The notes under the pieces were generated by a model, which searched no databases, was not told the origin of the DNA, and saw only the letters and a list, made by a program, of their open reading frames with translations. The translations under genes and the position numbers were made by a program. Positions 1 through 18,980 of a stretch of 33,155 nucleotides of DNA are shown here, in pieces. Each line of letters begins with the position of its first letter. Position 1 is the stretch's first letter. This stretch comes from an uncultured Erysipelotrichaceae bacterium (GTDB lineage: Bacteria > Bacillota_I > Bacilli_A > RF39 > UBA660), in assembly GCA_902803685.1 (NCBI GenBank), contig CADCQR010000064.1, positions 1 to 33,155 on the forward strand, read 5' to 3'.

Positions 1-220
1 ATTTTTTTTAGTGTTCATCAACAAATAAAAGCATTCACAGCAATGGTAATTATTTCCCGGGAAATATTTTTTTTAGTGTTCATCAACAAATAAAAGCATT
101 CACAGCAATGGTAATTATTTCCCAGGAAATAATTTTTTGAGTATTTATCAACAAATGAAATTATTCACAATAAGTGTGATTATTTTCCAGGAAATAATTT
201 TTGAGTGTTCATCAAAAAAT
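1..220. repeat. Tandem array of about 65-bp units carrying Noc-binding-site palindromes
   Basis: Units lie at 1-65, 66-130, 131-195 and a degenerate partial one from 196 to about 220. Units 1 and 2 differ at a single base (59 versus 124), and unit 3 is diverged. Each full unit ends in a palindrome: ATTTCCCGGGAAAT at 52-65, ATTTCCCAGGAAAT at 117-130 and ATTTTCCAGGAAAT at 182-195. The first equals the published B. subtilis Noc binding site. Each unit also carries DnaA-box-like words; those in unit 3 are TTATCAACA (145-153) and TTATTCACA (161-169, which fits TTATNCACA). Base 1 corresponds in phase to base 66, so the array probably continues upstream of the window. Confidence 0.85.
52..65. promoter_or_regulatory. 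Noc binding site (NBS), perfect palindrome
   Basis: ATTTCCCGGGAAAT is a 14-bp perfect palindrome identical to the known consensus for the nucleoid occlusion protein Noc, a ParB-family CTPase clamp. Variant copies with one and two changes follow at 117-130 and 182-195, at exactly 65-bp spacing. Confidence 0.75.
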
Positions 221-466: not shown

Positions 467-495
467 TTTACAAAAAAGCAATAATGTTATAAAAT
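467..495 (+). promoter_or_regulatory. SRP RNA promoter
   Basis: A -35 TTTACA (467-472) is followed by a 17-nt spacer and a -10 TAAAAT (490-495). This predicts a start near 502, exactly where the 5' arm of the SRP RNA helix begins. Confidence 0.75.
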
Positions 496-500
496 TAATT

Positions 501-579
501 TGTGCAATAAAAGTGATTGAAATTGGTCAGGATTGGAAAATAGCAGCCATAAGGTCCAACTTTTATGTGCACTTTTTTT
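501..579 (+). ncRNA. ffs: Small bacterial signal recognition particle RNA (4.5S-like)
   Basis: This is the RNA component of the signal recognition particle, which binds Ffh and targets ribosomes to the membrane. The universally conserved domain IV is readable: GGTCAGG (525-531), GGAA (535-538) and AGCAGCC (542-548), flanked by pairing arms. A long closing helix joins GTGCA (502-506) plus ATAAAAGT (507-514) with ACTTTTAT (559-566) plus TGCAC (568-572), with one bulged G. A run of seven T (573-579) follows directly, so the closing stem also serves as terminator. The transcript is about 75-78 nt, a short SRP RNA lacking the Alu domain found in B. subtilis. In B. subtilis the gene lies between tadA and dnaX, whereas here it precedes tadA. 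Confidence 0.94.
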
Positions 580-599
580 ATTTTATAGGCAGGTGTTTT

Positions 600-1049
600 A
601 TGAATAATAAATTATTTTTTGACGTGGCTTTTAAAGAAGCAGAAAAAGCTTTTAATATATTAGAAGTGCCGATTGGTGCTGTAATTGTACAAAATGGAAA
701 AATAATTTCCACAGGCCACAACCAAAAGGAGTTGAAAAATTGTGCTTTAGAACATGCTGAATTAATTGCTATTCGGAAAGCAAGCCAAAAAGCAAAAAAT
801 TGGAGACTGACTGATTGCGATATATTCGTTACCATGGAGCCTTGTGAGATGTGTGCAGCAGCTATAAAGAGTGCGAGAATAAGAAATATATATTCAGCTC
901 TTGCTAATGATGATGAAAATATCCACAATAATGTTTTGAATATATTGAAACAAGATAAATCTAATCCGCAAGTGAATTTAATTAATAATTTAGATATAAA
1001 GCGTGGTAAAGAAATGATAGAAAAATTTTTTTATCAACAAAGGCATTAA
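600..1049 (+). CDS. tadA: tRNA-specific adenosine deaminase TadA
   Basis: TadA converts A34 to inosine in the anticodon of tRNA-Arg(ACG), allowing decoding of CGU/CGC/CGA codons. The 149-residue product has the usual family length. The zinc site of the cytidine/deoxycytidylate deaminase fold is visible: H52-A-E54 (E54 is the proton shuttle) and P81-C82-E83-M84-C85. I chose ATG 600 because AGGCAGGTG (587-595) is a good Shine-Dalgarno and because homology starts here. An in-frame upstream extension to 381 would run through the SRP RNA and a parS site. No clear promoter lies between the SRP RNA terminator and this gene, so it may depend on read-through. tadA next to dnaX is the normal Bacilli order. 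Confidence 0.95.
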   Translation: MNNKLFFDVAFKEAEKAFNILEVPIGAVIVQNGKIISTGHNQKELKNCALEHAELIAIRKASQKAKNWRLTDCDIFVTMEPCEMCAAAIKSARIRNIYSALANDDENIHNNVLNILKQDKSNPQVNLINNLDIKRGKEMIEKFFYQQRH

Positions 1050-1091: not shown

Positions 1092-2786
1092 ATGCATAAA
1101 GCCTTATATAGACAATATCGTCCTAAAATATTTGATGATGTATACGGACAAGATGTTATTGTAAAGACATTAAAAAATTCTATTACGAATCACTCTTTTG
1201 GACATGCTTATATTTTTTTTGGACCACGTGGCACTGGTAAAACAAGTGTTGCTAAAATATTTGCAAGATCACTTAATTGTCTGAATTCCAAAGCCGGAAA
1301 TGCATGCGGAGAGTGCTTAGCATGTCAAAACTCTTATAATAACGAGTGTTTGGATATTATTGAAATAGATGCAGCGTCTAATAATGGTGTTGATGAAATA
1401 AGGGAATTAAAAAACAAAGTTTCTTTAGTTCCGTCTGTTTTAAAATATAAAGTATATATTATTGATGAAGTACATATGTTATCTATTGGTGCCTTTAATG
1501 CATTACTTAAGACGTTAGAAGAACCTCCTGAACATGCTGTTTTTATATTGGCTACTACAGATCCACAAAAAGTTCCTGAAACTATTATTTCTAGGTGCCA
1601 ATGTTTTTCATTTAAAAGGATTTCAGTAGAAAATATTGAATCTAACCTTGATACTATATGTAAGAAAGAAAAAATTGAGATAGATATTGATGTTTTGAAC
1701 GAAATTGCGTGTGTTGCTGCTGGAGGTATGAGAGATGCGTTAAGTTTACTTGATCAATTGCGCTCTTTTTCAAATGAAAAGATAACTTTGAAAGAGTTTG
1801 CTGATGTAAATGGGACACTAACAAATCAAGAGTTGGAAGAATTTTATAATGCTATATTTAATAGTGAATTTTCAGTTGTGTTAACTCTAATTAAAAAATA
1901 TAACGATTTAGGCAAAAATGTTGTCTTAATTATTGAAAAGTTGATGCGTATGGCACGCGATAAAATTGTTAATTTTTATTTAAAAAAAGAGAAAACTGCG
2001 TACCCTTTAGAAAATATTAATAAATTTGTTTTGTTAATAAATGATGAATTGAATAATATAAAGAAAAGTAGCAGTCCGATAATATATATTGAAATGCTTT
2101 TACTAAATTTTATGAACAACATCAAAATGGATTTACAGCCATTTAAATCTGAAGAGACCATGGACTATACATCTAAAACACTCTCAATTGATTTAAAAAA
2201 TGACCATAATATTAATAAAAGTGTTGCTACAAAACAGAAAAATGGCAGTAATGAAAGTTATAAAAATGACGAAAATAAATCTATTGAAGAGAAAGAAAAT
2301 GAAAATGAAAAAATAATTGTAAATCTTCCAGAAATATTGAGTGTTCGAATTAATAATACATTGGCAAAAGCTGATAAAAAATTATTATTGGATGAAATTG
2401 ATAAGTTGAAGTTGTTTAACGATTATACGTTTGATTCTAATTTTGGATACATAGCTTGTATTATTTTGGATTCGAAAATTAGAGCTGTAAGTGATGAAAA
2501 TATCATTATTAGTTATGAATATGATTCTGTTGTTAAACAAAATCTTTCGGAAATTGATAAGATAATTGACGTTTATAATAGAATAACTAGTTCTAATAAA
2601 AAAATTGCTATTGTTTCTGATAAAGATTGGAATGAAATAAAATCCCAATATATTAGTGATATAAAAAATGGTGTCACATATGAAGTGAAAAAAGAGCCAG
2701 AGGAACACTTTTTAGAAAATAAAAAAAGTGATATAATAAATGAAACTGCGATTAAGTTATTTGGCGATATCGTAGAGATAGATTAG
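1092..2786 (+). CDS. dnaX: DNA polymerase III subunit gamma/tau (clamp loader ATPase)
   Basis: DnaX is the ATPase core of the sliding-clamp loader, which loads DnaN onto primed DNA; tau also tethers polymerase and helicase. The 564-residue protein has a Walker A GPRGTGKT (44-51), four zinc cysteines (C63, C72, C75, C78), a Walker B ending in D125-E126-V-H, and the sensor/arginine-finger ISRC motif near residue 173. The N-terminal two thirds are the AAA+ and collar domains. The C-terminal part after about residue 370 is low-complexity, Asn/Lys/Glu-rich, then globular, as expected for tau. ATG 1092 is preceded by GGAGGT (1079-1084); an upstream in-frame TTG (1074) has no Shine-Dalgarno. It leads the operon dnaX-ybaB-recR. 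No programmed frameshift signal was convincing. Confidence 0.97.
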   Translation: MHKALYRQYRPKIFDDVYGQDVIVKTLKNSITNHSFGHAYIFFGPRGTGKTSVAKIFARSLNCLNSKAGNACGECLACQNSYNNECLDIIEIDAASNNGVDEIRELKNKVSLVPSVLKYKVYIIDEVHMLSIGAFNALLKTLEEPPEHAVFILATTDPQKVPETIISRCQCFSFKRISVENIESNLDTICKKEKIEIDIDVLNEIACVAAGGMRDALSLLDQLRSFSNEKITLKEFADVNGTLTNQELEEFYNAIFNSEFSVVLTLIKKYNDLGKNVVLIIEKLMRMARDKIVNFYLKKEKTAYPLENINKFVLLINDELNNIKKSSSPIIYIEMLLLNFMNNIKMDLQPFKSEETMDYTSKTLSIDLKNDHNINKSVATKQKNGSNESYKNDENKSIEEKENENEKIIVNLPEILSVRINNTLAKADKKLLLDEIDKLKLFNDYTFDSNFGYIACIILDSKIRAVSDENIIISYEYDSVVKQNLSEIDKIIDVYNRITSSNKKIAIVSDKDWNEIKSQYISDIKNGVTYEVKKEPEEHFLENKKSDIINETAIKLFGDIVEID

Positions 2787-2797
2787 GAGGAATTAAT

Positions 2798-3094
2798 ATG
2801 AATATACAAGCAATGATGAAGCAGGCTCAAGCTTTGCAGAAAGATATGTTAAAAATTAAGTCAGAAATAGATAATTCTGAGTTTGTCGGTGAAAATGCAA
2901 TGATTAAGATTGTTATAAAGGGTACAAAAGAAATTGTTGATGTAATTTTAAAAGTGAATGATGCATTAGATAAGGATGATTTGGAAATGTTACAAGATAT
3001 GATTAAGAGTGCCTATAATGAAGCTGCAAAGAAAGTTGATGAGGTTACCGAAAAGAAAATGGGTAAATTTGGTAATATTCCAGGGTTATTTTAG
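2798..3094 (+). CDS. ybaB: YbaB/EbfC family nucleoid-associated protein
   Basis: This small (98 aa) DNA-binding protein of the YbaB/EbfC family (YaaK in B. subtilis) forms homodimers shaped like tweezers and binds DNA non-specifically. Its position between dnaX and recR is conserved across bacteria and is strong evidence. The N-terminus (MNIQAMMKQAQALQKDM) is the typical first helix, the centre has the family's beta segments, and the protein ends with the usual Gly/Pro-rich tail (FGNIPGLF). A strong AGGAGG at 2786-2791 lies just before ATG 2798, only 11 bases after the dnaX stop, so the two genes are co-transcribed. Confidence 0.95.
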   Translation: MNIQAMMKQAQALQKDMLKIKSEIDNSEFVGENAMIKIVIKGTKEIVDVILKVNDALDKDDLEMLQDMIKSAYNEAAKKVDEVTEKKMGKFGNIPGLF

Positions 3095-3099
3095 TTTTT

Positions 3100-3696
3100 A
3101 TGTATCCTCAAAGTATAAAAGATTTGATTGAATCATTTAAATTGTTACCTGGTATTGGGCGAAAAACAGCAGAAAGATTAGCTTTTTCTGTGTTGGATTT
3201 AGAGGATGAGCAAATAGATTTTTTTTCTGATAGTATATCAAACATAAAAACAAACGTTCGCAGGTGTCGAATTTGCAATTGTATTACTGATAAAGATGTG
3301 TGTGATATTTGCCACGATAACAATCGTAATTTTGATATGTTGTGTGTGGTGGATGATAGTAAAAATGTTTTTTTGTTTGAAAAATTGGCTATTTATAGAG
3401 GCACTTACCACGTTTTAGATGGTCTTATTTCTCCTTTGGATGGTATAAATCCTGAGGATATTGGTATTCATAAGTTGATTGAAAGAATAAAAAGTGGTAA
3501 TTATGAAGAAATAATCTTTGCGTTTAAGCCAAGTATTGAAGGGGAGACAACAGCGCTTTATATAAAAAGAATACTTAGTGGTATTGATATTAGGGTAAGC
3601 AAGTTAGCTAGTGGTATACCGATTGGTGCAGATATGGAATATCTTGATGGTCTTACCTTGGAACAAGCATTAAATGGCAGAAAAATAATTGAATAA
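3100..3696 (+). CDS. recR: Recombination mediator RecR
   Basis: RecR works with RecO (and RecF) to load RecA onto SSB-coated gaps. The 198-aa protein matches the family length. A helix-hairpin-helix near residues 16-29 reads LPGIGRKTAERLAF. The four-cysteine zinc finger is intact (C56, C59, C68, C71), and a Toprim domain starts near residue 80. The acidic residue of the first Toprim strand is Asp (VVDD, 83-86) where most RecR proteins have Glu, a conservative change. It starts 6 bases after the ybaB stop with no strong Shine-Dalgarno, so translation may be coupled to ybaB. Confidence 0.96.
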   Translation: MYPQSIKDLIESFKLLPGIGRKTAERLAFSVLDLEDEQIDFFSDSISNIKTNVRRCRICNCITDKDVCDICHDNNRNFDMLCVVDDSKNVFLFEKLAIYRGTYHVLDGLISPLDGINPEDIGIHKLIERIKSGNYEEIIFAFKPSIEGETTALYIKRILSGIDIRVSKLASGIPIGADMEYLDGLTLEQALNGRKIIE

Positions 3697-11734: not shown

Positions 11735-11965
11735 ATTTAAAAGTTTTGATGGAAAGCTTTATTTGATATGTTTTTAGAGAACTTGTGTTGGGTGAAAACA
11801 AGTACATGTTTTATAATAGTATGGTTCCTGAACTGCTTAGTTGATATGTAAGCTAAGACGTTATTGGGCGTTAACCAAAATTGAGTGTAATATAATATTA
11901 TTAATTAAGGTGGTACCGCGTTTGTGATATGACGCCCTTATGAGATAGTATTTTTTTTATTTAAG
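11735..11965 (+). promoter_or_regulatory. Met T-box leader of metS
   Basis: T-boxes sense uncharged tRNA and control aminoacyl-tRNA synthetase genes. The conserved T-box sequence AAGGTGGTACCGCG lies at 11907-11920; its ACC-containing bulge pairs with the tRNA acceptor end. The Stem I distal part (ACTTGT...ACAAGT, 11781-11802) encloses GGGTGAAA. The likely specifier codon is ATG at 11821-11823, just before the usual GAACTGC context, matching tRNA-Met and the downstream gene. CTTAG/CTAAG (around 11836-11858) forms a further stem. The 3' antiterminator arm is CGCCCTT (11933-11939). No strong terminator hairpin follows: a T8 run exists (11951-11958) but lacks a GC stem. CCTTA (11936-11940) can instead pair with TAAGG (11962-11966), which overlaps the metS Shine-Dalgarno. 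Confidence 0.9.
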
Positions 11966-11976
11966 GAGGAGATTTT

Positions 11977-13497
11977 ATGGAAAAATTTTATATAACAACA
12001 CCAATTTATTATCCAAGTGCTAACTTTCACATTGGTCATTGCTATACTACGATTATTGCTGATGCAATAGCTAGATATAAGAGACTGAAGGGTTATGATG
12101 TGTTTTTTCAAACAGGTACTGATGAGCACGGTCAAAAAATTCAAAAAAAGGCAGAAGAAGCTGGTAAGACGCCTAAAGAGTATGTCGATGAAATTGTAGA
12201 AGATGCAAAAAAATTATGGAAATCTTTAAATATTAGTTATGATAAATTTATTCGTACTACAGATCAAGAACATATAGAGTGTGTTCAAAAGATATTTAAA
12301 AAATTGTATGATAAAGGGGATATATATAAGGGAGAATATAAAGGATTATATTGTACGCCATGTGAGTCTTTTTGGACTGACAGTCAGTTAGTTGACGGAA
12401 AGTGCCCTGATTGTGGGCGTGATGTTTATGAAGTAAGTGAGGAGGCATATTTCTTTAAACTGTCTAAATACCAAGATAAATTGATAGAATATTATGAGAC
12501 ACATCCAGAATTTATTGAACCGGTATCTAGGAAAAATGAGATGCTAAATAATTTTATAAAACCTGGTCTTGAAGATTTATGTGTTTCTAGAACCAGTTTT
12601 GATTGGGGTATCCCTGTTACTTTTGACGATAAACATGTTGTCTATGTTTGGTTGGATGCATTGACTAATTATATAAGTGGTTTAGGATATCTTACATCTG
12701 ATGATTCAATGATGAAAGAATATTGGCCTGCGGATTTGCATATTGTTGGAAAAGAAATTGTTAGATTTCATACTATAATTTGGCCAATTATGCTAATGGC
12801 TTTAGATTTAGATATCCCTAAAAAGGTATTCGGTCATGGATGGTTAATTGTTAATGGAGGAAAAATATCAAAATCTCTGGGAAATTATAAAGACCCTAGG
12901 GAATATATAGATTCGTACGGAGTTGATGCAGTTAGGTATTTTGCTTTGCGTGAAGTTCCATTTGGTAGTGATGGCAATTTTTCTGAGGAAGCATTAATTT
13001 CTAGAATTAACGGAGATTTAGCGAATGTTTTAGGTAATTTAGTTCAAAGAACTATTTCTATGGGAAATAAGTACTTTGATGGAAATGTTGAAGATAAAGG
13101 TCATTCAGATGAATTATCTCAAAAATTTATTACAGAAATTAATGAATTACAGAATTTGGTAGATGAAAAAATGTATAAATTAGAGATAAGTTCAGCAATA
13201 GGTGCAATCTTTAATGTCTTAAGGGCTAGCAATAAGTATATAGATGATACAACTCCTTGGATTTTAGCTAAAGATGAATCAAATAAAGATAAATTAGAAA
13301 CAGTTATTTATAATTTGTTGGAGTCAATTAGAGTTTGTGCGTTGTTATTAAGTCCTTTTATTCCTGATACGAGTGCAAATATAATAAAGCAGATTGCTAA
13401 TGATTGTACGAAGTGTATTAGAGTTAATGACAATGTTTACAAATTAGGAGTTCCTACTATATTGTTTCAACGAATAGATACTAATACTAAAGAATAA
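11977..13497 (+). CDS. metS: Methionyl-tRNA synthetase (short form)
   Basis: This class I synthetase charges tRNA-Met. The 506-aa protein has the HIGH motif (18-21), the KMSKS loop as KISKS (296-300), and a zinc knuckle in the connective peptide (C126, C129, C143, C146). The anticodon-binding helical domain extends to the end. It lacks the C-terminal EMAP/Trbp111-like tRNA-binding domain of B. subtilis MetS (664 aa), so it is a short, probably monomeric form. ATG 11977 follows AAGGAGGA (11963-11970). It is controlled by the upstream T-box. tatD follows, as in B. subtilis (metS-yabD). Confidence 0.97.
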   Translation: MEKFYITTPIYYPSANFHIGHCYTTIIADAIARYKRLKGYDVFFQTGTDEHGQKIQKKAEEAGKTPKEYVDEIVEDAKKLWKSLNISYDKFIRTTDQEHIECVQKIFKKLYDKGDIYKGEYKGLYCTPCESFWTDSQLVDGKCPDCGRDVYEVSEEAYFFKLSKYQDKLIEYYETHPEFIEPVSRKNEMLNNFIKPGLEDLCVSRTSFDWGIPVTFDDKHVVYVWLDALTNYISGLGYLTSDDSMMKEYWPADLHIVGKEIVRFHTIIWPIMLMALDLDIPKKVFGHGWLIVNGGKISKSLGNYKDPREYIDSYGVDAVRYFALREVPFGSDGNFSEEALISRINGDLANVLGNLVQRTISMGNKYFDGNVEDKGHSDELSQKFITEINELQNLVDEKMYKLEISSAIGAIFNVLRASNKYIDDTTPWILAKDESNKDKLETVIYNLLESIRVCALLLSPFIPDTSANIIKQIANDCTKCIRVNDNVYKLGVPTILFQRIDTNTKE

Positions 13498-13559: not shown

Positions 13560-14309
13560 ATGTATGTTGATACTCATTGTCACATATCTAGTGATGATTA
13601 TGAAAATATTGATGAATTAATAAGTAATAATAGAAATGCTAATGTAGAAAAAATTATAATATCTGGGTGTACAAAGGATTCTATTGTTGAGTCAATTGAA
13701 ATTTCAAAAAAACACAATGATGTTTACTTAAGTATAGGATATCATCCAAGTGAAGCAAGTGTAGTAGGTCCTGGTGATTTAAAGTTTTTAGAAATTGCTA
13801 TATCAGATGATAAAGTAGTAGCTATAGGAGAAATAGGTTTAGATTACCACTATGGAGCGGATAATAAGGCATTACAAATTGACTTGTTTGAAAAACAATT
13901 AGCACTTGCCGAGAAATATAATTTACCTGTTGTAATACATTCAAGAGATGCTACGGTAGATACTATTAATATTTTGAAAAAGTATAAATTAAGGGGGGAT
14001 ATTCATTGCTTTTCTGGTAGTCTTGAAACTGCTAAAATTTATATAAATATGGGTTATTATTTAGGAATAGGTGGCGTTGTAACATTTAAAAATAGTAATT
14101 TGTCTAAAGTAATTAAAGAAATTGGAATTAATAATATTTTGTTGGAGACTGATAGCCCATATTTGGCTCCAGAACCAGTAAGAGGTACTAAGAATTCTTC
14201 TAGAAATTTAGTTTACATATCAAAAAAAATTGCCGAGATATTGAATATCAGTGAAGAAAAAGTTGCTGATATTACAACTTCAAATGCTTCTAATTTGTTT
14301 GACTTGTAG
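13560..14309 (+). CDS. tatD: TatD-family metal-dependent hydrolase
   Basis: This TIM-barrel metal-dependent nuclease belongs to the TatD family (YabD in B. subtilis); family members have 3'-5' exonuclease activity. The 249-aa protein has all metal ligands in context: the N-terminal HxH in DTHCHIS, Glu in GEIGLDY, His in VIHSRDA, His in DIHCFSG, and Asp in LETDSPYLAP. ATG 13560 is the only in-frame start near the homology, yet no Shine-Dalgarno precedes it. TATAAT at 13536-13541 could give a leader of about 10 bases, or translation could be relayed from the small upstream frame at 13512. It is paired with metS as in B. subtilis. Confidence 0.95.
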   Translation: MYVDTHCHISSDDYENIDELISNNRNANVEKIIISGCTKDSIVESIEISKKHNDVYLSIGYHPSEASVVGPGDLKFLEIAISDDKVVAIGEIGLDYHYGADNKALQIDLFEKQLALAEKYNLPVVIHSRDATVDTINILKKYKLRGDIHCFSGSLETAKIYINMGYYLGIGGVVTFKNSNLSKVIKEIGINNILLETDSPYLAPEPVRGTKNSSRNLVYISKKIAEILNISEEKVADITTSNASNLFDL

Positions 14310-14363: not shown

Positions 14364-14939
14364 ATGCAAAAAGAAGAGATTATCAGAAATTTAATTTTAT
14401 TATCTTTGATTATTCTTTGTATAATTTTTCTTGTTATTTTTCTTAAATATAGAAACTCTAATCAGCTGTTTAAATCTGATAGTGGAGCTGTGGAACTTAT
14501 AAGTAGTAAGGGTAATGCGATAGAGATAGTTGATAATCATCCGATGAGTGATGAATTTGGAAAGAAAATATCAGATGATACGCTTTCAGTTCAATCATAC
14601 TATGCTTTTGAAGTTAAATCTATTTCTAACGTAGGAACTAATTTTGAAGTATATGTTACAGATTACGATTATAAAAATGATATTCAAACTAATTTTATAA
14701 AATTATATTTAACTGATGAAAATGATGAGCCAGTCAATGGATATGTTAATGCTTATGCTCCTACTTATTATAATTTGAGGGTATCTGCGTTTAATCCCGT
14801 AGGTAGAAGAATCTATTATGGCTATATTGGACCTCACGAAAGCAAAAAATTTATTTTAAGAGTTTGGGTTGGAGATGCTTATACCATAAAGGTAGATTCT
14901 AATAAATTTGGAATGAAGATTTATGCGGAGGCTGAATAA
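14364..14939 (+). CDS. Membrane-anchored TasA/camelysin-like surface protein 1
   Basis: This 191-aa protein has a short basic N-terminus, one hydrophobic segment (residues 9-28) and an extracytoplasmic beta-rich domain. The shape and sequence pattern resemble the TasA/camelysin fold exported through SipW-type signal peptidases: an alternating central block ending in IKLYL, then KFILRVWVGD, and a C-terminal strand MKIYAEAE. This closely parallels the next gene (shared NHP..., IKxYL, RxWV and I/VYxxA end). No Ala-x-Ala cleavage site is obvious, so the protein may remain anchored. GGGAGTG (14352-14358) precedes ATG 14364. It is followed two bases later by its paralogue. Family assignment is by pattern, not proven. 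Confidence 0.6.
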   Translation: MQKEEIIRNLILLSLIILCIIFLVIFLKYRNSNQLFKSDSGAVELISSKGNAIEIVDNHPMSDEFGKKISDDTLSVQSYYAFEVKSISNVGTNFEVYVTDYDYKNDIQTNFIKLYLTDENDEPVNGYVNAYAPTYYNLRVSAFNPVGRRIYYGYIGPHESKKFILRVWVGDAYTIKVDSNKFGMKIYAEAE

Positions 14940-14940
14940 A

Positions 14941-15546
14941 ATGGAAAGCAGAAATGATAAGATATCTAAATCTTTTATTATTACAATTGTTTTTTTAACA
15001 GTGGTGCTTGCTTCAATACTTGGCTATTCTTTGTATTCTTATTTTAATGTTCCTAGTAGAGTCGATGTATTGGAGATAGATGGCGGTAGTATTAATTTAA
15101 CTTATTCTGATGATGTAAGCGCTTTAACTATTAATCATCCTAAAAAAATTGGTGATGTTGAAGCAAAAAAAATTAATAGTGCAGATATGTATTTTGATTT
15201 TAGTATTTTTACTGAGTTAAGTGAGGCCACAAAAATATCATATGATGTTATTGTAACGCCTAATAAGAAAAATACTATTAAACCAGAATATATTAAAGTA
15301 TATTTGGAAAAGGTTGATAGCGGTGCATTTACTTCTGTTATTGAACCTTTAAGTTTAAAGAATGTAATAAAGTCAAATAAATCTGAATTAAGTAAAGACG
15401 CAGTAGTAATTTATAAAAATACATTGCAAAGAACTAAAAACGATACTTATAGACTAAGGGCTTGGGTTGATAGTAATTGTGATTATCAGTTAAAGGATAA
15501 TGATTTAATATCTTTAGATATTGATGTTTATGGAAAGGCAATTTAA
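14941..15546 (+). CDS. Membrane-anchored TasA/camelysin-like surface protein 2
   Basis: This paralogue of the preceding gene has 201 aa from ATG 14941, with GGAGG at 14927-14931; an in-frame ATG at 14923 is inside the previous gene and less likely. There is one N-terminal transmembrane segment (about 12-33), then a beta-rich domain with ISYDVIVTP, YIKVYLEK, RLRAWVDS and a final strand LDIDVYGKA, the typical TasA-like ending. It shares the order of motifs with its neighbour, indicating tandem duplication followed by divergence. A likely terminator spans its stop codon. The SipW-type peptidase starts 88 bases downstream. A role as a surface fibre or matrix component is inference. Confidence 0.6.
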   Translation: MESRNDKISKSFIITIVFLTVVLASILGYSLYSYFNVPSRVDVLEIDGGSINLTYSDDVSALTINHPKKIGDVEAKKINSADMYFDFSIFTELSEATKISYDVIVTPNKKNTIKPEYIKVYLEKVDSGAFTSVIEPLSLKNVIKSNKSELSKDAVVIYKNTLQRTKNDTYRLRAWVDSNCDYQLKDNDLISLDIDVYGKAI

Positions 15547-15634: not shown

Positions 15635-16246
15635 ATGCAAATACATGCTTTGAAAAATTGTGAGTTATGTGATGATTATAATACAAAAGACACAATGAAA
15701 TATTTAATGGGTTTTGTTGCTAAGTCAATGTTTATTTCAATCATATCTATTTTGACTGTAATTATGATTGTAGCTTTACTATTCTTTGGCGATATATTAT
15801 ATAATTCACGCAAAGGCAATAATGTTGTGCCATTGTTTGGTGGGTATATAATAGTTACTCCAAGTATGGTTCCCACGTTACAAATTCAAGATGCCGTAGT
15901 CGTAAAGAGAAGTAGTGTAGATGACTTAAAAATCGGTGATATTATTACTTTTAAATCGAGTGATATAAGATATAATAATTTAGTTATTACTCATCGAATT
16001 GTTGGAGCACAGAAAATTTCTACAGGTGATTTAGTATATAGGACAAAAGGTGATAATAATAAACTAGAAGATTCTGCTTTAGTTACTTATAATAGTGTCT
16101 ATGGGAAGGTTGTTCTAAAAATACCAAGATTAGGATTTGTAAAGGTTTTTCTTAATAAGCCAGTTGGTTTTATTACGTTGGTTATTATGCCAATTATATT
16201 GTTAATTTTGTTAAATTTAAAGGGTATGCGTAAAGAAATTATTTGA
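15635..16246 (+). CDS. sipW: SipW-type (ER-type) signal peptidase I
   Basis: This 203-aa signal peptidase of the S26B class removes signal peptides on the outer membrane face. The nucleophile serine is S77 in TPSMVPTL. The position that is Lys in ordinary bacterial type I peptidases is H120 (ITHRIVG), which defines the archaeal/ER/SipW class, and the D box is KGDNN...D with D140 and D146. Transmembrane segments lie at about 28-52 and 175-195; the second follows the catalytic domain, as in SipW. AGGTGG (15624-15629) precedes ATG 15635, with TATAAT words at 15612 and 15618. In B. subtilis SipW processes TapA and TasA, and the two TasA-like genes immediately upstream suggest the same partnership here. 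Confidence 0.92.
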   Translation: MQIHALKNCELCDDYNTKDTMKYLMGFVAKSMFISIISILTVIMIVALLFFGDILYNSRKGNNVVPLFGGYIIVTPSMVPTLQIQDAVVVKRSSVDDLKIGDIITFKSSDIRYNNLVITHRIVGAQKISTGDLVYRTKGDNNKLEDSALVTYNSVYGKVVLKIPRLGFVKVFLNKPVGFITLVIMPIILLILLNLKGMRKEII

Positions 16247-17097: not shown

Positions 17098-17134
17098 AAA
17101 AAGATAATTGACATATATTTTAGTGGTGATGTCA

Positions 17135-17902
17135 ATGGTTTTTAAGAAAGGTGATTATGTTACTAGATCATCTCACAATAATGATATACTTTTTAAAATA
17201 ACTAGTATTAGCAATGATATTGCTGAGTTAAAAGGAGTCAATGTTAGATTATGTGCAGATTCTAAATTAACGGATCTTGTTAATGCAACTAATGTTATTA
17301 TCAGTGATGAAGAGGTGGTAAGCAATAAATTTGATGATTTGGCACTAGATAGAGGGCGATTTTTTTACTTACCAGGAAGTATTTTACATATTGATGGAGA
17401 TGAAGAATATTTAGCAAGATGTATGAAATTTTATAAAAAAATGAATGTAAAGGCTAATGGATTTTATTTGCCAGAACCAGAGATGCGTATAAAAGTTCAA
17501 AGTTTATTGGAAAAATTTCATCCTGATATTTTAATATTGACTGGTCATGATGCATATTATAATAAGGTCAATCGAAGTGATTATCAAAATTCATCAAATT
17601 ATATAGAAGCTGTTAGAGAAGCTAGAAGATATGAAAAAAATCAGGATAAATTGATAGTTATTGCCGGCGCATGTCAGTCTAATTATGAGGAATTAATCAA
17701 ATCTGGTGCTAATTTTGCTTCTAGTCCAAAAAGGATAAATATACATGCCTTGGATCCTGCTATTATTGCTGTTGCTCTTGCATTTTCTGACAGAAATAAG
17801 AGTATAGATTTAATGTCTTTAATTAATAAAACAAAATATGGTAGTGATGGCATTGGTGGTATTATTACTAATGGTACTATGTATGTGGGGTTTCCAAGAT
17901 GA
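17135..17902 (+). CDS. yabG: Sporulation-specific cysteine protease YabG
   Basis: YabG is a spore-coat-modifying protease made in the mother cell late in sporulation. The 255-aa protein (B. subtilis 290 aa) shows the family blocks DRGRFFYLPGSILHIDGD (72-89), ILTGHDAYYNK with H138, and IAGACQSNYEELI with C180, the likely catalytic Cys/His pair. SSPKRINIHALDP follows, and the protein ends in GIGGIITNG. ATG 17135 follows GGTGAT (17124-17129); in-frame ATG 17129 and TTG 17108 are alternatives. No sigma-K promoter was convincing upstream. The stop overlaps the start of the veg-like gene. This is one of the clearest sporulation markers in the window. Confidence 0.95.
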   Translation: MVFKKGDYVTRSSHNNDILFKITSISNDIAELKGVNVRLCADSKLTDLVNATNVIISDEEVVSNKFDDLALDRGRFFYLPGSILHIDGDEEYLARCMKFYKKMNVKANGFYLPEPEMRIKVQSLLEKFHPDILILTGHDAYYNKVNRSDYQNSSNYIEAVREARRYEKNQDKLIVIAGACQSNYEELIKSGANFASSPKRINIHALDPAIIAVALAFSDRNKSIDLMSLINKTKYGSDGIGGIITNGTMYVGFPR

Positions 17903-18221: not shown

Positions 18222-18503
18222 ATGAAAATAACATCAGTAAACGTACGAAAGATTGAAAAAGATGGTTCTCGGATGAAGGGGATTGCATCAGTTTTAATAG
18301 ATGAAAGTTTCGCAGTACATGATATTCGTATAATTGAAGGAGATAATGGTTTGTTCATTGCTATGCCTAGTCGTAAAACTGCTACTGGAAGTTATCGTGA
18401 CATCGCTCATCCTATAAATCCAGAAGTTCGTTCTATGTTTGAAGAGGCTATTCTTGAGGCATATAAAAATGCTCCTGATGTATCTGATAGCGAAGAAGAG
18501 TAA
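18222..18503 (+). CDS. spoVG: RNA-binding regulator SpoVG
   Basis: SpoVG is a conserved nucleic-acid-binding protein that affects cell division at the onset of sporulation and many regulons in Firmicutes. The 93-aa protein is typical throughout: MKITSVNVRKIE at the start, ASVLIDESFAVHDIRII, GLFIAMPSRK, and YRDIAHPINPEVR. An acidic tail ends the protein. The gene has its own promoter and a clear terminator, so it is monocistronic. GAGGGAGGAAA (18205-18215) precedes ATG 18222. Its position after yabG-veg matches B. subtilis, with ispE and purR missing. Confidence 0.98.
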   Translation: MKITSVNVRKIEKDGSRMKGIASVLIDESFAVHDIRIIEGDNGLFIAMPSRKTATGSYRDIAHPINPEVRSMFEEAILEAYKNAPDVSDSEEE

Positions 18504-18686: not shown

Positions 18687-18980
18687 ATGGATAAGCAAGA
18701 TAATACAATGAGTAACTATAATCATAGTATACAGTTACTAGAAAGAAAAAATTTAGTTGTTTCTGGAGTGAAAAAGGTAGATAATTTTGATAATAAGCAA
18801 TTTATAATTGAAACAATTTTAGGATTCATGGTAATAAAAGGTGAGGATTTGGAGCTTCTAAAATTAGATACTATACAAGGTATTGTTTCTATTAAGGGTT
18901 TAGTTAATAGTATAGTTTATGCTGAAGATTCACATAAAAAAGATAAAGATGATAGTATAATTAGTAGGTTATTTAAATAA
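18687..18980 (+). CDS. yabP: Spore cortex/coat protein YabP
   Basis: YabP is made in the mother cell during sporulation and is needed for spore maturation in B. subtilis. The 97-aa protein matches the family pattern: a polar N-terminus (HSIQLLERKNLVVSGVKKVD), DNKQFIIETILGFMVIKGEDL, then a block ending in VSIKGLVNSIVY, and a basic, aromatic ISRLFK end. The start may be ATG 18687 or ATG 18708; neither has a strong Shine-Dalgarno. The stop codon overlaps the yabQ ATG by one base. The order yabP-yabQ-divIC is conserved with B. subtilis; yabO and yabN are missing. Confidence 0.9.
   Translation: MDKQDNTMSNYNHSIQLLERKNLVVSGVKKVDNFDNKQFIIETILGFMVIKGEDLELLKLDTIQGIVSIKGLVNSIVYAEDSHKKDKDDSIISRLFK

Follow-up and report, generated by a model that had tools for sequence, protein, structure and literature searches.

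Organization of the locus

The DNA analysed here (33,155 nucleotides from an uncultured Erysipelotrichaceae bacterium, hereafter "the window") opens within a tandem array of candidate Noc-binding sites (NBS), which is followed by two parS-like palindromes, the gene of a small SRP RNA and a run of genes headed by tadA and dnaX. The features relevant to the present analysis are the following, parS mismatches being scored against TGTTTCACGTGAAACA, which we take to be the parS consensus.

1–65, unstranded: tandem unit 1 (repeat comparison and Tandem Repeats Finder); the window begins here and further units may lie upstream
52–65, unstranded: candidate NBS palindrome, exact ATTTCCCGGGAAAT, 0 mismatches (motif scan)
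66–130, unstranded: tandem unit 2, 98% identity to unit 1
117–130, unstranded: candidate NBS palindrome, 1 mismatch (motif scan)
131–195, unstranded: tandem unit 3, 78% identity to unit 1
182–195, unstranded: candidate NBS palindrome, 2 mismatches (motif scan)
198–233, unstranded: partial fourth unit, palindrome-free (without NBS); Tandem Repeats Finder places the array end at 221
382–397, unstranded: parS-like palindrome TGTTCCACGTGAAACA, 1 mismatch to TGTTTCACGTGAAACA (motif scan)
441–456, unstranded: parS-like palindrome TGTTCCACGTGGAACA, 2 mismatches to the consensus and itself a perfect palindrome (motif scan)
493–586, plus strand: bacterial small SRP RNA (Rfam RF00169, 53.2 bits against a gathering score of 40)
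600–1049, plus strand: tadA, right flank of the site-bearing interval in relatives (internal ATG at 600 in ORF 381–1049)
1092–2786, plus strand: dnaX, the marker for the position of the window among its relatives
2798–3094, plus strand: ebfC-like ORF (named from reading; order as in relatives)
3100–3696, plus strand: recR (TIGR00615, 240.6 bits against a cut-off of 162.55; order as in relatives)

Tandem Repeats Finder delimits the array to positions 1–221, with a period of 65 and 3.4 copies; the full units step by exactly 65 bp and every one of them is closed by an NBS palindrome. The first-pass annotation had described three such palindromes, one exact and the others with one and two changes, in a 65-bp tandem array having base 1 in phase with base 66, and both the array (by unit comparison, motif scan and Tandem Repeats Finder) and the phase are borne out. 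Inasmuch as the window opens within the array, three units represent a lower bound. The flanks of the exact site at 52 match a longer consensus found in the relatives, approximately AAATTATTTCCCGGGAAATAATTT, and the sole additional NBS match of the window at up to 3 mismatches is located at 13904 (3 mismatches). A shuffle test is weak when taken alone, with a mean of 1.37 matches at 3 mismatches and with four matches being reached in 6 of 100 shuffles. From the rate of the reversed motif in 40 related genomes (84 per 47.7 Mb), 0.0003 sites with at most 2 mismatches would be expected in 195 bp, an estimate in which the copies, being tandem duplicates, do not count as three independent events.

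The nearest NBS–parS distance in the window is ~200 bp, so that these sites are not of the tightly paired type described below. The name of tadA comes from sequence reading and gene order; in the relatives, tblastn matches to this gene fall in the stretch from gyrA to dnaX. The gyrA and dnaA genes of this genome would lie beyond the end of the window and the near-oriC position of the array is read from the relatives.

Farther into the window, a T-box leader (11737–11942; RF00230, 102.2 bits) precedes an ORF (11977–13497) reading as methionyl-tRNA synthetase. Two small secreted-looking ORFs (14364–14939 and 14923–15546) are followed by a signal-peptidase-like ORF (15635–16246), all three named from reading only, and sporulation-type genes occur in this small-genome lineage, namely yabG (17108–17902; 262.7, just under the cut-off of 270.4), spoVG (18222–18503) and yabP (18687–18980).

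The gyrA–tadA interval in related genomes

By DnaX identity the nearest relatives of the window are the genomes G602 (61%), G565 (58%), G042 (57%) and G021 (56%), all of which belong to the family sample of G021. Viral contigs were also scanned with DnaX and gave 13 loci, uninformative for the array. In the relatives in which the flanks are present the gene order is rsmG-mnmG-mnmE-jag-yidC-rnpA, diverging from dnaA-dnaN-recF-gyrB-gyrA-[sites]-tadA-dnaX, and the interval holding the sites is that between gyrA and tadA, ~9 kb from dnaA.

Sixty loci were fetched by DnaX similarity or by a listed NBS and, after 18 without complete flanks had been dropped, 42 complete intervals remained. NBS (at most 1 mismatch) are present in 31 of them, a number that is not a frequency estimate since the loci were partly selected for NBS, and parS (at most 2 mismatches) in 35; both types occur together in 27 intervals and neither in three, NBS being missing from 11 and parS from seven. 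Altogether, these 34.9 kb contain 64 NBS and 135 parS sites, as against 0 and 0 for the reversed motifs.

The two types of site remain distinct, side by side, within single genomes, and their centre-to-centre spacing peaks at 26–28 and at 44–47 bp. Within a genome this spacing is often constant; one genome (G552) has eight parS–NBS pairs at 45–47 bp, start to start, in which a common sequence spans both sites and the spacers differ; this shared sequence could be explained either by duplication or by constraint. Five NBS–parS pairs at 26–27 bp are found in G034 and four alternating pairs within 126-bp units in G089. Tandem NBS units recur with lengths of 71–74 bp in G032 and of 138 bp in G163, and in G030 NBS with 1 mismatch are spaced by ~103–105 bp between tadA and dnaX. 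The first-pass annotation had offered a dedicated loading centre or a recent amplification as readings of the array, and both fit near-identical tandem NBS units that have other lengths in other genomes. Several contigs of the relatives begin or end in or near the interval (e.g., G032:C51, G089:C16, G042:C1 and G583:C45), as repeats would cause.

A DnaA-box sequence, TTATNCACA, occurs 20 times in 57 intervals, compared with 3.9 in Markov shuffles and 5 for the reversed motif; in some genomes it sits between NBS and parS. Unit 3 of the window carries TTATTCACA at 161 (161–169), and units 1 and 2 have diverged from the box, with 2 mismatches at positions 15 and 80.

An NBS is found also inside a gene. 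Fourteen of the 109 exact NBS of the 40-genome set defined below lie within dnaX, 1015–1158 nt from the match start, in a variable region (about nt 1015–1173) that holds an NBS in many genomes and a parS-like site in others; in G576, for instance, parS takes the place of the NBS. Among the 29 dnaX genes read, sites with at most 1 mismatch are mostly in frame 0, where they bring in CGG, a rare codon (20 of the 450 for Arg across these genes), and are in frame 1 in two, and the occurrence of the same site in another frame points to selection acting on the DNA. In the dnaX of the window itself the motif scan found neither NBS nor parS.

Near-confinement of the NBS to the origin region

Of the 193 genomes that make up the order sample, 155 contain the exact NBS and 2 its reversed control; in the family sample, likewise of 193 genomes, the numbers are 158 and 0. 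The two samples overlap, and among the matches listed for the family sample the number per genome ranges from 1 to 20. Genomes of the two lists for which every site was listed, G095 being left out for its incomplete list, form a set of 40 (~47.7 Mb) with 109 exact NBS. Ninety-nine of these sites are on a contig that also carries dnaX or dnaA, 98 being at most 15 kb from one of these genes and one ~102 kb away; the other 10 are on contigs having neither gene.

The count of exact sites is insufficient as a proof of confinement, since the positive control failed: just 3 of 13 other Bacilli contain the exact NBS, with 5 sites in all. Because the exact pattern would miss scattered, degenerate sites, a comparison was made at up to 2 mismatches with the reversed motif as control. 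The 40 genomes gave 218 sites against 84 for the control (109 exact), whereas the 13 other Bacilli (50.9 Mb), which serve as a control for scattered NBS-like sites by analogy only, gave 446 against 176 (5 exact). The excess in the order is thus 134 which, minus the 109 exact sites, leaves ~25 across 40 genomes, compared with ~21 per genome in the other Bacilli, two of which show little or no excess (10 versus 5 and 9 versus 9). Three large contigs, totalling 800 kb of which 144,000 bases read N and could hide scattered sites, have 7 sites with at most 2 mismatches within 20 kb of dnaA and 1 farther away, the reversed motif giving none within that distance and 1 beyond it. When 3 mismatches are allowed, 8 distant sites compare with 10 for the control.

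In this order of relatives the NBS are near-confined to the origin region, and scattered sites, at least of this sequence, are apparently lacking. A random density of the motif throughout the genome, named by the first-pass annotation as an observation that would speak against a special array, is contradicted in the relatives by this clustering. The origin location, the order-wide clustering, the apparent absence of scattered sites, the two adjoining parS sites and the SRP RNA had not been mentioned in that annotation.

The Noc homologue and its predicted specificity

A profile built from four homologues separates long proteins (at least 245 bits, open frames of 328–724 aa) from ParB (at most 220 bits). 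By profile search a Noc homologue is present in 39 of the 40 NBS-bearing genomes, the search having found none in the remaining one (G164), and also in 27 of 35 genomes lacking the exact NBS (Fisher p 0.01). Among these 27, sites with 1 mismatch occur in 10 and are missing from 17, and in three genomes having a 1-mismatch site (G590, G094 and G077) the search found no Noc match. A strict one-to-one link between noc and the exact NBS was therefore rejected: the noc genes of genomes lacking the exact site are a real weakness of such a reading, to which incomplete assemblies may contribute.

All three Noc homologues tested have the ParB_N and HTH_ParB domains, and the best PDB matches are the Noc structures 7ng0, 7nfu and 7ol9. 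Their TIGR04285 scores (286.2, 295.3 and 272.5) are under the cut-off of 315, ParB controls scoring 243.3 and 238.9. According to PMC7383237, the residues that switch ParB to NBS are Q173, K at 179 or 184, one permissive lysine sufficing, and R201. Q173, K179 and R201 are present in all 30 homologues read (QKNR in 23, QKSR in 4, QKTR in 2 and QKKR in 1). The homologues of G602 and G572 also carry the NBS-type set and that of G576 reads QKQH, with H at 201 (by position count). The specificity residues of the 30 homologues thus predict NBS binding. The ParBs of G602, G572 and G576 read RMNG, RMTG and RMSA, so that R occupies 173 and the Noc set is absent; in the same genomes ParB has a ParA motif and a ParA-like gene is present. 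In G576 noc adjoins rsmG and precedes parA-parB, and the order noc-parA-parB is found also in G602 and G572.

The ascription of the palindromes to Noc and the significance of their clustering, both put forward in the first-pass annotation, are well supported through the relatives, in which the NBS sequence is found again close to the origin and NBS-type residues accompany the sites.

The N-terminal region of these proteins is short. The conserved PNR[FY]QPR begins at residue 16–22 in 26 of 30 homologues, at 27–29 in two and at 35–37 in two, these last four being counted from the first possible start, whereas in the solved Nocs ~38–40 residues precede this motif. As reported in PMC8429893 (see also PMC4331003), the membrane helix of Geobacillus Noc is in the N-terminal region; 26 of the 30 proteins being too short before the domain, most would be without the region that holds the N-terminal amphipathic membrane helix, and we class the protein as a homologue of Noc rather than as a putative membrane-binding Noc. 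The proteins (335–634 aa) have a linker of 59–370 residues by the cut used here. The motif FF..[LFIVM] is found in 16 of 33 linkers, compared with 2.7 in shuffles, and could be a candidate partner or membrane motif. The linkers (e.g., L182–L211) share also short motifs, approximately I..I...A.DI and [NG][KR]FFN.

Interpretation

The sites, their neighbourhood in the relatives, their near-confinement to the origin and the presence of a Noc homologue with NBS-type residues make it likely that the array is a Noc loading centre that is restricted to the origin and combined with the ParB centromere, placed in the gyrA–tadA interval beside parS. The Noc homologue of the order would load almost exclusively in the origin domain, and the bacterium of the window presumably encodes such a protein, which would bind the array. 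NBS and parS would constitute a single composite loading zone, with ParB nucleating at parS and Noc at the NBS, and, if the behaviour of B. subtilis Noc as a CTP clamp is taken as a guide, both proteins probably slide outward over the same origin-proximal DNA. The purpose of such an arrangement would be to mark or organize the origin, and not to cover the nucleoid in its entirety. More tentatively, Noc may have become a second centromere protein, taken out of nucleoid occlusion, so that two related CTP clamps of separate DNA specificity are loaded from a composite parS–NBS zone, the long linker of Noc, in place of a membrane helix, serving to bridge or anchor the origin; the latter proposal is a serious possibility which we hold with somewhat less than even confidence.

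A centromere-like or origin-organizing role is favoured over both replication control and an occlusion focused on the origin. In the latter case nucleoid occlusion would operate in its classical form from few sites, Noc still attaching DNA to the membrane and inhibiting division and the origin sites being enough for a genome of 1–1.5 Mb. This would agree with the homology to the Nocs of B. subtilis and Geobacillus and with the frequent position of noc beside parA-parB, and the enriched FF..[LFIVM] motif could be a relocated membrane anchor. On the other hand, the region of the N-terminal helix is missing in most homologues and sites no farther than 15 kb from the origin genes would label nothing but the origin, so that we regard this explanation as unlikely, albeit to be reckoned with. 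A replication-control element, at which Noc would restrain initiation and which may also bind DnaA, is rather unlikely too: S. aureus Noc controls initiation, according to PMC5540599, the interval is close to dnaA and the DnaA-box sequence is enriched in it and occurs in unit 3 of the window, but the boxes are found in only 10 of the 57 intervals, several of which come from a few related genomes, and units 1 and 2 of the window depart from the box.

Two further explanations dispense with Noc. The palindromes could be satellite-like or transcriptional sequence, a tandem-duplicated palindrome such as a terminator after gyrA, as might be suggested by the T-run that follows them and by unit lengths (65, about 72, 126 and 138 bp) that vary among genomes as expected of tandem-repeat turnover. 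This is highly improbable, because the palindrome core is kept whereas the rest of the unit varies, because the same site recurs inside dnaX of many genomes, in two of them in a different frame, and because the sites are associated with Noc and with parS. Finally, that ParB itself binds the palindromes as degenerate parS is the reading to which we give least credence; NBS and parS do differ at few positions and the site in dnaX takes either a parS-like or an NBS form, depending on the genome, but the three ParBs read have R at 173 without the Noc set, and parS and NBS keep apart within one and the same genome. The alternation at the dnaX site looks like a natural record of the specificity switch that is studied by mutagenesis in PMC7383237.

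Comparison with known systems

In the current understanding, Noc conveys the position of the nucleoid to the division machinery through its scattered sites. A lineage whose NBS are almost exclusively those of the parS centromere and whose Noc is seemingly helix-less would show that the Noc–NBS pair has been put to another use, and would represent a natural test of the action of a ParB-type clamp when confined to the origin. A literature search at the level of titles and abstract beginnings, with subscription papers mostly outside its scope, found no description of NBS clustered with parS.

The palindrome ATTTCCCGGGAAAT is the same as that of the B. subtilis NBS and has the same core as that of S. 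aureus. The known NBS are bound by a ParB paralogue and are biased to the origin side (PMC5540599); about 70 of them are distributed around most of the B. subtilis chromosome (PMC4331003), and S. aureus has 41, which with one exception fall between −700 and +700 kb. Unlike these, 98 of the 109 sites checked here are at most 15 kb from dnaX or dnaA, are mixed with parS and are sometimes in tandem. The protein resembles Noc (7nfu, 7ng0, 7ol9; TIGR04285) in its ParB_N and HTH_ParB domains, in its NBS-type residues, in the position of its gene by rsmG and parA-parB and in that the ParA motif was not found in the homologue N-terminus read; it differs from the known Nocs in that the helix region is absent in 26 of 30, the linker spans 59–370 residues and the TIGR04285 scores of the three tested are 272–295 versus 315. 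As in a ParABS centromere, parS-like sites are clustered near dnaA in the relatives and parA-parB is present in three of these (G602, G572 and G576) but, unlike in such a centromere, a second type of site is interleaved with parS, at NBS–parS spacings that peak at 26–28 and 44–47 bp.
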